Shown one piece after another: positions 27,880-35,114 of a stretch of 64,000 bases of DNA (its first letter is position 1; every line of letters starts with the position of its first letter). Position numbers and translations under genes: made by a program. The DNA comes from Oscillospiraceae bacterium (GTDB lineage: Bacteria; Bacillota; Clostridia; Oscillospirales; CAG-272), in assembly GCA_015064735.1 (NCBI GenBank), contig SVRP01000007.1, positions 1 to 64,000 on the forward strand, written 5' to 3'. The notes under the pieces were generated by a model, which was given only the letters and a program-made list of their open reading frames with translations, had not been told where the DNA came from and made no database searches.

Positions 27880-28587
27880 ATGATTTATGCTTATTGCCGC
27901 GTTAGCACCCAACATCAGAAAATCGCCCGACAGATCACCAATATCACCGCTATCTACCCGAATGCAATTATCATCAAAGAATTTTACACAGGTACTACAC
28001 AGAACCGTCCACATTGGGAGAAATTCATACCCCAAGTAAAAAAGAAAGACACCATCGTTTTCGACAGTGTCTCCCGAATGGCGCGTAATAGCGCAGAGGG
28101 CTATAAAGATTACAAAATGCTCTATGAGCGTGGCATTAACCTCGTCTTTCTTAACGAGCCACTTATAAATACGTCTGTTCTCGATGCCACTAAGAGCAAA
28201 CTGCTGAACGTCAGCATCGACACTGGAAATCAAGCAGTTGACGCTTTCTTTAAGGGCAATATACAATTGATCAATGATTTCATATTAGCTTTGGCAGAAG
28301 AACAGATCAAAGCAGCTTTTGACCAAGCCGAAAAGGAAGTTACCGATCTTCATTCAAGAATCAGTCAAGGAATCCGTGAAGCTAAAAAGAATGGGACACA
28401 GATAGGCCTTACCAAAGGCTCAACACTGACCACCAAGAAGTCTATAGAGTGTAAGGCTATTATCCAGAAACACTCTAAAGACTTCGGTGGAACACTGGAA
28501 GATCCTGACGTCATCAAACTCTGCGGTTGCTCTAGGAACAGTTATTATAAGTATAAGCGAGAAATAAAATTCAAAAGCCGTAATTAA
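27880..28587 (+). CDS. serine recombinase (resolvase/invertase family)
   Basis: The 235-residue protein has the N-terminal catalytic domain of resolvases: MIYAYCRVSTQHQK with catalytic Ser9, DTIVFDSVSRMARNS and the LALAEEQIKAAF dimerisation helix region, then a linker with GIREAKKNGTQIGLTKG and a C-terminal helix-turn-helix (VIKLCGCSRNSYYKYKR). It would act on plasmid or island DNA as a resolvase or invertase. GAAAGGAAG precedes the ATG. The last codons form one arm of the terminator that follows. Confidence 0.9.
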   Translation: MIYAYCRVSTQHQKIARQITNITAIYPNAIIIKEFYTGTTQNRPHWEKFIPQVKKKDTIVFDSVSRMARNSAEGYKDYKMLYERGINLVFLNEPLINTSVLDATKSKLLNVSIDTGNQAVDAFFKGNIQLINDFILALAEEQIKAAFDQAEKEVTDLHSRISQGIREAKKNGTQIGLTKGSTLTTKKSIECKAIIQKHSKDFGGTLEDPDVIKLCGCSRNSYYKYKREIKFKSRN

Positions 28588-31600: not shown

Positions 31601-33837
31601 GCAGAATAAACTTTAACGTTGTAAATTGTTTTTTGAACAGTTATCCCATTCGCGGAAGCTGTCAACCGTATGGTTACTGTTTCTCCCGCGGTCAAAGGAG
31701 CACTCGCAGAAGCCGTGACTTCAATTAATCTTCCAAGATTATCCGTACACCTAGCATCGAAGATATCCGCTGTTATATCTTTAAGTGAAGAAACCGCAGT
31801 AACAGTTTCATCATAGGTAAGTGTTAACGAATATATATCCCATTTAGCATAAAGAATAATATCTTTCGTGGGCATGGTAGAAAAGACGTATGCTTCGTCA
31901 CTTGATTCTAAGAACCACCCTCTAAAGGAATATTTTTCTCTTTTGGGATCTTCGGGAGCCGTAATTTCCGTACCACAGTATTCAGTTAATGGGACAACTT
32001 CCGTTCCTCCATTACTTACAAATGTAATTGTAATTTCAAGTGCTTCCCACTTGGCATACAGGTTTACTATACCAGTTGTTCCAGCAGAAACTTCAGTCAC
32101 TTTCCTGTTAAATTCTGCATCACTATACCAACCAGCAAATCTATAACCTTCCTTATTAGCATCACTCAGAACAAGAGGTTGATCTTCAACATCATAATTG
32201 GAAGGATTGCTATTGGTCGCACCGTCAACATTATGATATACGATATTGTAAGTAATCAATGTATATACAGCGTTGATCGTAATATTCTCATGTCCGAGAG
32301 TATAACTCTCCCATGCGCCTGTGTATCCCGCATGTTCGGGAACTGCAGGTTCGGTGATAGAATTGGTTTCTACTGTAAACTTAACCGTTCCAACGGGTAT
32401 ATCTCCATCCATGAATGTTGCGGTATATTCAATAGCCTCCCATTTTGCGTAAAGGTTAACAACATCTGTTGTTCCAACCGCAATTTCGGTTACTTTGTTA
32501 TTGAATTCTGCATCGGTATACCAACCCTTAAAGGTATAGTAATCCTTGCTCACATCAAAAAGTACAAGAGGTTGATCTTCAACATCATAATTGGAAGGAT
32601 TGCTATTGGTCGCACCGTCAACATTATGATATACAATATTGTAAGTAATCAAAGTATATACAGCGGTAACCGTAATATTTTCAGTGCCAAGAGTATAGCT
32701 CTCCCATGCACCTGTGTATCCCGCATGTTCGGGAATGGCAGGTGGAGTAATCGATTCGGTTTCTACTGTGAATTTAACCGTGCCAACAGGTGTATCTCCA
32801 TCCATGAAGGTTGCGGTGTACTCAACAGTTTCCCACTTTGCGTAAAGATCGACAACACCCGTAGTACCAACCACAATTTCGGTTACTTTGTTATTGAATT
32901 CTGCATCGGTATACCAACCCTTGAAGGTATAGTAATCCTTACTTGCATCAAGAAGTGCAAGAGGCTGATCCTCTATATCATAGGAATCGGGATTGGTATT
33001 AGTTGCTCCTGTTACATTATGATACGTGATGGAATAACCAATCGTATCCCACTTGGCAGTTAAAGTAAGATTACCAGTGCTACCCTTGGAGATTTCCATA
33101 ACCTTAGTATCGCCAACATACCAACCGCCAAAGGTATATCCATCTTTAGACAAAGGGGAAAATGTAATTGTCTCGCTATTGATGTTATATGTAGACGGAT
33201 TTGTATTTTCAGCACCTTTGGTATTCTCATAAGTAATGCTGTACGTTGCCAATTTAAACTTGGCATACAGATTCATATCTCCGGTAGTCCCCGCAGATAT
33301 GGATTTTATCGGTGTTGCAAAAGTCGCATCAGTATACCAACCCAAGAAGGTATAACCCGCTTTTTGAGCATCCGCAAACTCAAAACTGCTCTCAATTGTG
33401 TATGTTGCAGGATTGTTATGCGTACCGCCATCCATTTCATAGGATATGGAATATGCAATCGGTGTAAATTTTGCATATACGGACATATCACTTGAAATTG
33501 GAGCATCGAGTAATGAGTTTGCCGTAAAAGGCTTACTCCATACATCCTTATCCCAATACCAACCGTCAAAAGTATATCCGTCCTTTGATGGATTTTCGGG
33601 GATTTGAATCGTCTCCGTTCCTGTTGTAGTTATGGTAGAATAGGTTTCTCCCTCTACAACAAACGATAGGATCACATTTTGATTTGCTTGTTCGCTATTC
33701 TGTTCGTTTTTCTGCGTCAAATCTGTAGGACTATCATTTGAATCACACGAAAACAGAGTCATAGTCTCCATAACAAGCAATAAAATTGCTAATACAATTG
33801 CAATTAAACGCTTTTTGTTAGATCTTATTTCTTTCAT
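28651..33837 (-). CDS. giant modular surface lipoprotein (InlB repeats, Ig-like repeats, GLUG repeats)
   Basis: The 1728-residue protein begins with a basic/hydrophobic signal and lipobox LFSC (Cys31), so it should be anchored to the outer face of the membrane. In order it has: seven InlB/Listeria-Bacteroides-type repeats (FxGWYxDxxF...LYAKW) with two shorter GAWESYTLG units; about eight Ig-like repeats of some 75 residues (DSFGxxLTVT...GNTVTI...D..GN); and near the C-terminus about ten GLUG-type units (GGLVGYNEGGTITNCYATGD). No sortase motif or C-terminal membrane helix is seen. It resembles adhesins. The ATG at 33837 has GGAG 9 bases upstream. Expression is probably set by the leader RNA at 33891-34086. 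The InlB DNA repeats (period 393 bp) are nearly identical and prone to recombination. Confidence 0.85.
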   Translation of the reverse strand: MKEIRSNKKRLIAIVLAILLLVMETMTLFSCDSNDSPTDLTQKNEQNSEQANQNVILSFVVEGETYSTITTTGTETIQIPENPSKDGYTFDGWYWDKDVWSKPFTANSLLDAPISSDMSVYAKFTPIAYSISYEMDGGTHNNPATYTIESSFEFADAQKAGYTFLGWYTDATFATPIKSISAGTTGDMNLYAKFKLATYSITYENTKGAENTNPSTYNINSETITFSPLSKDGYTFGGWYVGDTKVMEISKGSTGNLTLTAKWDTIGYSITYHNVTGATNTNPDSYDIEDQPLALLDASKDYYTFKGWYTDAEFNNKVTEIVVGTTGVVDLYAKWETVEYTATFMDGDTPVGTVKFTVETESITPPAIPEHAGYTGAWESYTLGTENITVTAVYTLITYNIVYHNVDGATNSNPSNYDVEDQPLVLFDVSKDYYTFKGWYTDAEFNNKVTEIAVGTTDVVNLYAKWEAIEYTATFMDGDIPVGTVKFTVETNSITEPAVPEHAGYTGAWESYTLGHENITINAVYTLITYNIVYHNVDGATNSNPSNYDVEDQPLVLSDANKEGYRFAGWYSDAEFNRKVTEVSAGTTGIVNLYAKWEALEITITFVSNGGTEVVPLTEYCGTEITAPEDPKREKYSFRGWFLESSDEAYVFSTMPTKDIILYAKWDIYSLTLTYDETVTAVSSLKDITADIFDARCTDNLGRLIEVTASASAPLTAGETVTIRLTASANGITVQKTIYNVKVYSAPTLVFDDTVKYVNVDDGMTATHFSASGTDTFGAATQIKVYIAGEYEVGTFVTVVIESIDPAGNITYGYIENIQAYGFPEITYNKNKTSISVTDTLSAKLFDATAKDSFGAVLTVTITRYSGTMAAGNTVTIRISATDSKGHTTNIDVECKVYGMPVISEAIKTDVRADDTVTPELLGITGTDTYGNSLTVTLITKEGKQTAGTIWTITAIISDVAGNVTTKNFELMVYGAPTICYNRDGVRVEEDATIAPVAILNIIAKDSFGKDLTVTASVKSGSLIAGTYITYTLIATDHLGNTYSIDTVPIGVYDVNDIKFTYSQGMSNLIKITSKGEEFDARASDSFGHLCDITIEAADGYTLSGGKTITLYIVATDKAGNRVLSEAVSGINVYDIPTVTLNQNNRVVDENTDISFLLTAHDSFGEELYTEITIEGEQMEGNTIVVTLTAVDSSGNTVTKQYTFGVLPSEKPFVELYIDGKLWQAFFANDASNYILPMPELSNGFEAVWIDGDVNIYSQTDGVGLIELPDNIQLYYKTYKAGYTPIWTIEQLKSISLSDINAKYCLMLNLDLNGSEWTPIGTGSSPFSGEFDGNGHYISNFMVSSVAHCEGLFGNNNGTIKNLGVENFRVYKYDPEYVGYLGGLVGFNNGTITNCYATGRVINDGWETNYTGGLVGYNEKGTITSCYATGDVIGVSSTTENYAGGLIGYNEGGTIANCYATGDINCDPNEYSAGRAGGLVGYNEEGIIKNCYATGDVTAFAIEDSKQSIYAGGLVGGSGYDISSNKTGTIIMNCYATGNVISNSSYGKCYAGGLIGYNESHAITNCHAIGNVAASSSDNHSLAGGLIGYNEYCTITNCYATGDVSSSTFGYSAWLDYQSHAGGLVGFSVGHAITNCYATGNTTSIASGYNEGYAGGLIGYNDTCTITNCYRYSSQEISGKTKNTIGAAKDLAELHSVVFLSSTLGWSTDDWNLVEDQHPTLKNVGVAN
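32171..32660. repeat. 393-bp-period direct repeats within the InlB-repeat region
   Basis: The block starting ACAAGAGGTTGATCTTCAAC occurs at 32171 and again at 32564 with about 75 nearly identical bases, and flanking segments (32380-32560 and 32680-32940) are also close. The unit encodes 131 residues, so expansion or contraction keeps the frame. Confidence 0.8.
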
Positions 33838-33890
33838 CTCATCTTTCTCCATTGATCCATAATGTTAAACATTCTATAAAACGATTAAAA

Positions 33891-34086
33891 AAGGCGCCGA
33901 CCGGAGTCAACGCCTAAAAAACGCAAACTCCGATAGTCGCCAAACTATTCTAATATGAGGCATGTTTATATACCTATGTAGATGGAATTTGCATTTTTAT
34001 CAAATTCTACTACATAGATATGTCAAAAAGGGTATAGCTACCCCATGGGAAAACATACCGTCAATCTCATATTCAAATAGTTTGGC
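33891..34086 (-). promoter_or_regulatory. riboswitch-like structured leader with terminator/antiterminator switch
   Basis: The predicted transcript starts at the first base of a long P1 helix (34066-34086 with 33939-33959, about 19 bp). Inside are two hairpins: GGGTA/TACCC at 34030-34043 and a two-part stem CTATGTAG..GAATTTG at 33974-34017, giving a three-way junction. Directly after P1 come AUCGGAGUU (33926-33934) and a terminator GGCGUUGAC-UCCG-GUCGGCGCC plus U6 (33891-33914). AUCGGAGUU can pair with GACUCCGGU (33900-33908) inside the terminator, forming an antiterminator. This is the architecture of a ligand-responsive leader upstream of the giant lipoprotein. I do not recognise the class. 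Confidence 0.75.
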
Positions 34087-34092
34087 ATATAC

Positions 34093-34121
34093 ATTATATC
34101 ACATAATTATGAATATTTCAA
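34093..34121 (-). promoter_or_regulatory. promoter of the leader RNA and giant lipoprotein
   Basis: Minus-strand TTGAAA-N17-TATAAT; the expected start 7 bases downstream is 34086, the first base of the P1 helix. Confidence 0.85.
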
Positions 34122-34132
34122 GTTTTTTTGCA

Positions 34133-35089
34133 TTATTTAGGTAATGGCTGTTCTGTTGTCATCGTAATCCTACTCTTCCCATAAAACTTATCAAGCACAT
34201 TGAACTCGTCTACCTGTTTTGAGATATCACTAACCAACAAATGGATATAATTCTGCGTGATTTCGAGACTGGAATGACCTAACAGCTTTGAGAGGGAGAC
34301 GACGTTGCCACCGTTGAGGATCCATTGTTTTGCAAAGGTATGGCGGTAGCGGTGGATGCCTGTGGTCTGCACACCTCTGCGCTTGTTGTATTCGTAGAGC
34401 ATATGATAGCAGGTGCTTTTCGTGAGCTGCTGACCGAAGACGTTACAGAAGAGAAAGTCGTCATTGCTTTTATGATGTCTGTATTTGAGGTACTCGGAGA
34501 GGATATTGACCATAGTTCGATTGAGTGGAACGATCAAAGGCTTTCTGTTCTTCGTTACGTTGACGTACACCACATTGTTATCAAAATCGATGTCCTTGAT
34601 CTGAATGTGCATCAAACTCCGCTGCCTGATTCCTGTGCTGAAAAAGAAGTTCGTCATCACCCAACATTGGTATTCGGTAAAGGAACATTTCTTGATATTA
34701 GGCTTCTTCAAAAGCAGTTGCAGCTCCTGCTCGTTATAGGTTTCAATATGGCTTTTATCGACCTTGATCGCCTGCATCTTGAAATGAGGAAGATAGCCCT
34801 CGCTCATGAAGAAATGCAAGGTCGTTATTAAATCTCGAAGATAGGAATTGATGCTGACGTCGTTGTCGAGTGTAGATTTCAAATGCAGAACGTAGTCCTT
34901 ATAGGTCTGCTCGTCAATGTCCTCAATAGGCATCTTAGGATCGAAGTATTTATAGAAATACGTATAACTCTGCTTGTAGTGATTGATCGTTCCTTGTCTC
35001 AAATTCCTCTGACGACAGTATTCCAAATACTTGTTGCAGCCTTCTTCAAAGGTAAGCGTTGTCCCTCTCGCCATTTTGATCTTTTTCAT
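34133..35089 (-). CDS. tyrosine recombinase (phage/ICE-type integrase)
   Basis: The 318-residue integrase has an N-terminal SAM-like DNA-binding domain (about 1-100) and a catalytic domain with the expected residues: Arg in TGIRQRSLMHIQ, Lys in VTKNRKPLIVPL, His-x-x-Arg in GIHRYRHTFAKQW, His in LLGHSSLEITQ and the nucleophile Tyr in QNYIHL. The ATG at 35089 has GGAGG 9 bases upstream. It sits at the extreme right end of the island, 26 bases from repeat copy D and the 3' end of the GGGtGRT gene, the usual place for an integrase next to its attachment site. Confidence 0.93.
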   Translation of the reverse strand: MKKIKMARGTTLTFEEGCNKYLEYCRQRNLRQGTINHYKQSYTYFYKYFDPKMPIEDIDEQTYKDYVLHLKSTLDNDVSINSYLRDLITTLHFFMSEGYLPHFKMQAIKVDKSHIETYNEQELQLLLKKPNIKKCSFTEYQCWVMTNFFFSTGIRQRSLMHIQIKDIDFDNNVVYVNVTKNRKPLIVPLNRTMVNILSEYLKYRHHKSNDDFLFCNVFGQQLTKSTCYHMLYEYNKRRGVQTTGIHRYRHTFAKQWILNGGNVVSLSKLLGHSSLEITQNYIHLLVSDISKQVDEFNVLDKFYGKSRITMTTEQPLPK

Positions 35090-35114
35090 CGTAAAAATCC
35101 TCCGCATTTTTATA

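Follow-up and report, generated by a model that had tools for sequence, protein, structure and literature searches.

A predicted two-state leader RNA family outside Rfam 15, present in multiple copies in gut Clostridia

The leader and the gene behind it

The window analysed here is the whole 64,000-nucleotide stretch of an Oscillospiraceae bacterium (GenBank assembly GCA_015064735.1, contig SVRP01000007.1, positions 1 to 64,000). On its minus strand, a gene for a large surface protein is preceded by a structured leader RNA (34086-33887), which starts with the first base of a helix P1 at 34086, runs to the end of a tail at 33917 and is followed by an intrinsic terminator. Comparison with its homologues indicates that this leader is one copy of an RNA family outside Rfam 15, a predicted two-state leader switch that occurs in multiple copies in gut Clostridia. 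We consider it probable that the leader belongs to a Clostridia-wide family of 5' leader RNAs acting as two-state transcription attenuators.

A sequence-only reading of this region (hereafter the preliminary description) had proposed a consensus promoter with transcription starting on the first P1 base. This was borne out, as the promoter has 11 of 12 consensus matches and its -10 box lies 6 nt before 34086, which is hence the expected +1. The longest open reading frame (ORF) of the surface-protein gene begins at 33852; the ATG at 33837, with a better spaced GGAG, is the likelier start and coincides with the start of the range originally described. The N-terminus of the protein carries the lipobox LFSC. 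The features of the locus are as follows, where Type I and Type II are the two subtypes of the family discussed below.

34121-34093, minus strand: extended sigma-70-type promoter, TTGAAA-17 nt-TG.TATAAT
34086-34075, minus strand: P1 5' strand, starting at the predicted +1 (99.9% paired, 99 distinct aligned copies)
34059-34052, minus strand: P2 5' strand, partner 33966-33959 (RNAfold)
34044-34025, minus strand: small hairpin GGGG..CCC followed by U5, Type I only (RNAfold; conservation; column pairing)
34021-34010, minus strand: P3 lower stem 5' strand, partner 33981-33970 (RNAfold; covariation)
34007-34001, minus strand: P3 apical stem 5' strand GAAUUUG (98.8% paired with CAAAUUC)
33998-33984, minus strand: P3 loop and 3' strand AAAAAUGCAAAUUCC, with GAAUUUG or the tail as partner (99.1% tail-paired, 99 distinct copies)
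33966-33959, minus strand: P2 3' strand (RNAfold)
33950-33939, minus strand: P1 3' strand (same pairing evidence as the P1 5' strand)
33937-33933, minus strand: anti-P1 strand ACUAU, predicted alternative partner of the P1 3' strand at 33948-33944 (covariation; 4/5 pairs supported)
33932-33917, minus strand: predicted switching strand, or tail, CGGAGUUUGCGUUUUU (pairing counts, conservation, shuffle test)
33915-33887, minus strand: intrinsic terminator, with stem 33915-33892, UCCG loop and U6 at 33892-33887 (sequence)
33908-33900, minus strand: antiterminator partner GACUCCGGU within the terminator (pair counts, shuffle test)
33837-28651, minus strand: putatively regulated gene, encoding a ~1728 aa lipoprotein-like surface protein with Listeria-Bacteroides and GLUG repeats (ORF, Pfam)

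The leader is framed by inverted arms of 21 nt (34086-34066 and 33959-33939), complementary at 19/21 positions (90%), with two RNAfold-predicted hairpins between them. The 19-bp P1 enclosing two hairpins that had been described therefore stands as regards arms and hairpins, while P1 proper is refined to 12 bp, the helix resuming past a mismatch. The 201-nt leader folds with an energy of -75.2 kcal/mol, compared to -41.9 ± 4.3 kcal/mol for shuffled sequences (z -7.7; 0/200 as low). Directly behind P1, the segment 33934-33926 (AUCGGAGUU) is complementary to 33908-33900 (GACUCCGGU). The UCCG-loop terminator with six U is as first read, and so is its pairing with this segment, which proves to be one of three competing pairings.

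Distribution of the family and the genes it precedes

No Rfam 15 family reached its gathering score anywhere in the window, and the leader itself gave at E<=10 weak matches far under gathering (best E 0.86). Twenty further Type I loci yielded a single tRNA at gathering, located outside the leader, and 20 Type II loci yielded four matches at E<=1, all under gathering (best E 0.015). The preliminary description had found no match to a known class, and had named a clear Rfam hit or missing covariation as findings that would speak against it. The lack of a match was confirmed with Rfam at gathering and relaxed thresholds, and covariation in homologous leaders proved strong. A literature search, with preprints and most subscription journals outside its scope, found no description of this leader RNA.

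A covariance model detected five full-length and three short, divergent copies in the source genome (E<=0.001). A DNA search of the same genome gave six further matches, of which four lie in full-length relatives (L002, L003, L004 and L006) and two (L005 and L007) are promoter-like pieces only. Across the genus, DNA search matched 27/30 genomes, and the covariance model R1, built from alignment A1 (30 copies of 32 candidates, with L016 and L017 excluded), matched 30/30 at E<=0.001, including 8 matches in the source genome, three of them short and weak. At the same threshold, R1 matched 95/196 sampled genomes of the taxonomic family, in 52/71 genera and with a maximum of 11 matches per genome. 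Matches were furthermore found in 40/197 sampled genomes of the order (E<=1e-5) and 40/291 of the class (E<=1e-6), 38 of the latter from outside the order; among 199 sampled genomes of the phylum, the source genome alone matched at E<=1e-6. Absences in these large searches are weak, since few candidates per genome were scored when more than 40 genomes were searched. An exact 24-nt pattern from the family occurs in at least 120 stretches in named genomes; the 80 titles listed are mostly Clostridia metagenome assemblies, with Pumilibacter intestinalis and Lachnospiraceae bacterium MD329 among them as isolates.

From a total of 218 matches, 198 were kept following exclusion of antisense echoes, contig-end fragments, duplicates and the weakest matches, and 189 of these are distinct; pair counts refer to the 187 copies longer than 150 nt. 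A co-directional gene lies behind 184/189 distinct copies (one copy lacks such a gene, and for four the contig ends first). The start codon is located a median of 26 nt past the start of the terminator T run (range 2-419), as determined by a simple gene caller without random-site control. Simple pattern tests detected a -10 box in 172 and a terminator hairpin with T run in 182 of the 189 copies. The -10 box is 6 nt from P1 in 150/185 copies and 7 nt in 15/185, and given this spacing transcripts are expected to begin at the first P1 base.

With its own promoter and its own strong terminator, the element could be thought an independent small RNA gene ending at the terminator. A gene start nevertheless follows nearly all copies at a tight distance, and an antiterminator would be purposeless in such an RNA. 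This makes an independent gene very unlikely, and it was rejected on the gene distance, subject to the caller used. The terminated leader could have an additional role. Tandem hairpins ahead of a terminator are also what leader-peptide (ribosome) attenuation or a T-box would present. However, ORFs with a Shine-Dalgarno sequence occur in 61/187 leaders compared to a mean of 71.1 in shuffles, and in 15/46 Type II leaders (without shuffle comparison), and the T-box hallmark was found in 0/187. On these counts both were rejected, and we attach almost no probability to either.

Pfam scans covered 129/184 downstream and 113/170 upstream proteins. The downstream proteins matched 103 Pfam families. 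The most frequent are BspA-type leucine-rich repeats (13) and LRR_8 (8), followed by Listeria-Bacteroides repeats and zinc ribbons (5 each). In a simple motif test, 46/168 downstream proteins were lipoprotein-like compared to 4/150 upstream (Fisher p 2e-10). It had been proposed that the leader controls an adhesin, for which a second-messenger or surface signal would make sense. The lipoprotein enrichment would fit a signal linked to the surface, but with 103 families behind it the leader is not adhesin-specific. Upstream neighbours matched 222 Pfam families over the 113 proteins, without a common regulator. Defence genes were rejected as the main cargo, with each PADLOC family matching at most 2 of the 129 downstream proteins.

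A small Cys-rich protein family (CLGNG...ECCCDEC) recurs downstream of the leader at loci L002, L003, L069, L070, L166 and L295, with a divergent relative at L040; at L070 and L040 it is located behind two tandem leaders. Tandem leaders, 107-229 nt apart, occur at L159, L070, L040 and L195. At L070 and L058 a tiny ORF lies between the tandem leaders, as though a second leader had been inserted before an already leader-bearing gene.

Competing folds and the proposed switch

Covariation supports two mutually exclusive folds of the leader, predicted to interconvert through three linked strand exchanges. Fold A combines P1, P3 and the antiterminator, which are mutually compatible. Fold B likewise combines three compatible helices: an anti-P1 hairpin formed with the P1 3' strand, a 15-bp helix between the P3 3' strand and the tail (P3-3':tail), and the terminator. 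Alignment A3 (100 of 199 loci searched; 99 distinct copies) was used to assess both. P1 is paired at 99.9%, with both-side changes in 7/11 pairs, and the P3 tip at 98.8%. The 15 bp of P3-3':tail are 99.1% paired in the same copies, and 91-100% per position in the 187 copies. The P3 lower stem is also visible, as columns 125-127 covary with columns 188-190 and are 73-83% paired. P2 is variable among copies, aligns poorly and shows little covariation. RNAalifold recovered P1 only from the plain alignment.

The anti-P1 strand has the form ACWAU, and its base W forms a standard pair with the P1 3' strand in 94/96 aligned copies. W tracks P1 position 8 and the partner of that position, the combinations being (A,U,A) in 85, (U,A,U) in 49, (C,G,U) in 34 and others in 19 of the 187 copies; with one copy per 80% cluster, the three named combinations account for 45, 19 and 10 of 78. 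In the antiterminator, W faces its terminator base as A-U in 68, U-A in 48, U-G in 16 and a mismatch in 19 of 151 copies (39, 19, 5 and 7 of 70 by 80% clusters). A loop pattern was recognised in the terminator of 174/187 copies, and in 171 of these 174 the base preceding the loop is a purine. The closing pair of the loop is G-U in 77 cases and G-C in only 12. Both the purine and the G-U closure are what one would predict if the tail also makes use of these bases. As a separate observation, A3 column 150 (the P3-loop purine) follows column 258 (W), with A/U in 54, G/A in 27 and A/A in 13; this association may be a subtype signature or a contact.

Each leader's own strands were compared with shuffled ones. 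For P3-3':tail in Type I, own tails gave -16.46 kcal/mol compared to -15.62 kcal/mol for shuffled tails (0/500 shuffles). For the antiterminator, the own tail beat shuffled tails in both subtypes (0/300 and 0/500). Taken as a set, the fold B helices have 94.6% of cells paired, compared to 92.1% when shuffled and 41-56% when slid, with 0/500 shuffles reaching the observed values for either cells paired or covariation.

The short copies provide a further comparison. Type II consists of matches of ~130 nt that keep the promoter, P1, AAUA-like bases, the tail and the terminator, while inspection found neither the three-way junction nor the small hairpin. Three are located in the source genome, and two of these precede lipoprotein-like genes:

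G000:C31:175918-176055, C29:114789-114922, C23:215768-215904: Type II copies of the source genome

The Type II pairing test used 46 short copies that were inspected (L294, L296 and L298 excluded). Over 41 distinct pairs, own P3-3':tail pairings gave -14.71 kcal/mol compared to -11.3 ± 0.34 kcal/mol for shuffled ones (0/1000). This co-drift of P3 and tail, as seen by comparison, is the strongest support for the predicted P3-3':tail helix. The retention of the exchanges in Type II leaders that are devoid of the junction suggests that the common core of the family is the switch. The three-way junction, which the preliminary description had stressed, is not a constant feature of the family. Type I in turn conserves the P3 tip, the AAUA beside P1 (90-94/101 per position) and the small hairpin. 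The U run of the latter is T in 95-96/101 at three columns, and its columns 69:104 and 70:103 are 89-90% paired. The small hairpin with its U5 is a possible pause site.

Several observations weigh against this two-fold model. RNAfold places fold A lower in 161/167 copies, with a median advantage of 19 kcal/mol. Given this gap, fold B would have to be driven by a strong input, be reached kinetically or take a pseudoknotted form, which RNAfold cannot score; a pseudoknotted OFF form retaining P2 and the lower P3 stem may narrow it. Fold B is less clear on double-change pairs (8/500) and pair types (3/500), and the anti-P1 hairpin has only 4 bp, a fifth pair being present in 13/99 copies. The Type I P3-3':tail pairs are absent from the 60 strongest covarying pairs because much of this pairing is invariant; support for them is mostly conservation, and Type II is the stronger test. 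Furthermore, the shuffle controls keep the relatedness among copies.

In the mechanism we propose, RNA polymerase would begin at the first base of P1 and the P1 fold would form first. With P1 and P3 formed (state A), the tail would base-pair with the terminator's rising strand and its loop, and the gene would be transcribed. Were P1 opened or never closed (state B), its 3' strand would fold onto ACWAU and the P3 3' strand would capture the tail, so that the terminator folds and ends transcription. A signal holding or opening P1 and P3 would pick the state. State A is assigned ON and state B OFF since the P1 fold leaves the tail to hold the terminator open. Sequence comparison establishes the RNA family, its leader position and, as predicted structures, the competing helices; the ON and OFF assignment, a regulated choice between them and the nature of the signal are what we infer from it.

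What this signal could be is a separate matter, as strand exchange had been taken as strong evidence for ligand or protein sensing and is on its own insufficient. At one extreme the leader would sense nothing and would set a fixed or stochastic read-through of surface genes. The very diverse regulated genes, the lipoprotein enrichment and the ability of the RNA alone to form both folds are all compatible with this, but a fixed terminator needs fewer than three linked strand exchanges, and we consider the absence of any signal rather unlikely.

A protein or trans-acting RNA that reads the leader, making it a controlled antiterminator, is a tentative possibility. The P3 apical hairpin is nearly invariant while P1 drifts with compensation, although the several competing partners of P3 can also explain its conservation. 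The presence of the leader is patchy. Twelve genomes of the taxonomic family (all at least 90% complete, 150 candidates each) contained zero leaders at E<=0.01, and the leader-free genome G035 carries the same genus label as G148, which has 9 matches. This run contained no known-positive genome, though the model finds copies elsewhere. No common upstream regulator was apparent, and the co-occurrence search covered reverse transcriptase only.

A strict riboswitch, in which the body binds a small molecule or second messenger that stabilises P1, is quite possible, though we would rate it somewhat below even chances. The leader has the cis 5' position of a riboswitch and, by comparison of sequences, a mutually exclusive platform: a two-state terminator/antiterminator architecture centred on P1. 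The AAUA beside P1 is conserved in Type I and, by eye, is present in most Type II copies. In contrast, no compact invariant core is apparent other than strands explained by pairing, Type II keeps only part of the elements conserved in Type I and retains the switch without the junction, and no Rfam class matches.

In purine and SAM-I type riboswitches, P1 closes the sensor and its formation decides between terminator and antiterminator. The leader resembles these in its P1-centred decision, but differs in that three helices would swap together, the transcript starts at base one of P1 and two bodies share one platform. The c-di-GMP-I and -II (cyclic di-GMP) riboswitches of C. difficile are described as multi-copy transcriptional leaders that precede genes for adhesins, surface proteins and small proteins of unknown function (PMC11477304). 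The leader is like them in copy number, predicted transcriptional action and surface targets, and its many copies before diverse surface genes favour a riboswitch. It is unlike them in lacking an Rfam match, in a body that differs between Types I and II and in the great diversity of its genes. Guanidine-IV and HMP-PP riboswitches have conserved nucleotides tied to the terminator and transcriptional ON logic (PMC7736828, PMC8632094). The leader shares the terminator-linked conserved nucleotides and the predicted ON logic. The Guanidine-IV and HMP-PP aptamers lie in or beside the terminator stem, whereas in the leader a 15-nt tail swaps partners and P1 has a second partner, and Rfam gives no match. 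We file the leader as a new family of attenuating leaders, which would work like a P1-centred transcriptional riboswitch.

The leader body as an exchanged module

Comparison of closely related leaders reveals that the body between promoter and terminator has a history separate from its surroundings. Among 42 leader pairs whose full bodies share 90% identity or more, homology of the upstream or downstream flanks was undetectable in 33 and present to some extent in 9. In these 33 pairs the first 12 body bases are identical. Identity at the six bases before +1 is 0.70, 0.52, 0.52, 0.30, 0.61 and 0.73, compared to 0.64, 0.34, 0.36, 0.32, 0.43 and 0.50 in random pairs, and falls to 0.63 past the tail (random 0.50) and 0.36 past the terminator (random 0.33). 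The borders of the exchanged body thus lie near +1 and the tail. Other pairs share flanks around more divergent bodies: L038 and L200 have promoter (92%) and gene (85%) in common with 73% identical bodies; in L163 and L225 it is terminator and gene that are shared (97%), with unrelated promoters and 80% identical bodies; and L093 and L225 agree in the upstream region (88%) and terminator (94%) with 82% identical bodies and unrelated genes. In the source genome, the bodies of L003 and L004 are 97.7% identical and the genes behind them unrelated. These two loci also contain a dispersed repeat (L003:994-1296 and L004:795-1135, pieces 87-94% identical), located ~60 and ~390 nt before P1.

Near-identical bodies between unrelated flanks indicate that the body is exchanged as a module. 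The unrelated locations and sharp borders that mark a mobile element are both seen for the leader body. Homologous exchange via the conserved ends is the more ordinary explanation of body transfer. Because bodies start at +1, RNA-templated spread through complementary DNA was considered; it was rejected, as reverse transcriptase (PF00078) occurs in 2/9 leader-rich compared to 3/9 leader-free genomes, some of the leader-rich genomes being incomplete. Phage or plasmid origin was rejected likewise. An exact-pattern search of IMG/VR with two patterns returned 0 stretches, and blastn found no match among plasmids. The phage search gave one record, MT835503.1, an unverified faecal scaffold with a leader at L258:338-501 (94.4 bits). 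This leader precedes what we take to be an EcoRI-methylase-like ORF, and given further, presumably transporter-like ORFs the record may be a bacterial contig.

The surface-protein gene and its leader are flanked by a resolvase-family gene (27880-28587, plus strand) and a tyrosine integrase gene (35107-34133, minus strand), and together they may constitute a small island. In gut bacteria, invertible switches of promoters or leaders consist of inverted repeats before a surface-protein gene beside a recombinase. The integrase gene at 34133-35107 adjoins the 21-nt inverted arms, which could on this basis be taken for its recombination sites, forming an invertible switch or attachment site. However, integrases occur in only 3/113 upstream neighbours, the window's own counted, 184/189 copies are co-directional with their gene, and the arms vary with compensation, as covarying RNA helices, with no inversion seen. 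On orientation, arm covariation and the rarity of integrase neighbours this explanation was rejected as most improbable. Elsewhere in the window (36986-35252, minus strand), a GGGtGRT-family protein lies beside a protein with a weak NifU-like match under the Pfam cut-off.

We know of no riboswitch in which the body is exchanged apart from promoter and gene. A speculative but conceivable reading is that of a plug-in RNA, shared among Clostridia, in which interchangeable sensor-body cassettes, swapped in between the transcription start and a common tail, would put unrelated accessory and surface genes under one signal via the three-helix exchange, with Types I and II acting as separate sensors on a shared platform. 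Acquisition of a body may bring a gene into the regulon, and a single trigger may govern an entire set of accessory genes. Standing before lipoproteins, repeat-rich surface proteins and many further genes, a regulatory RNA outside Rfam would mark out a regulon, and body exchange would show a route by which accessory genes enter it.

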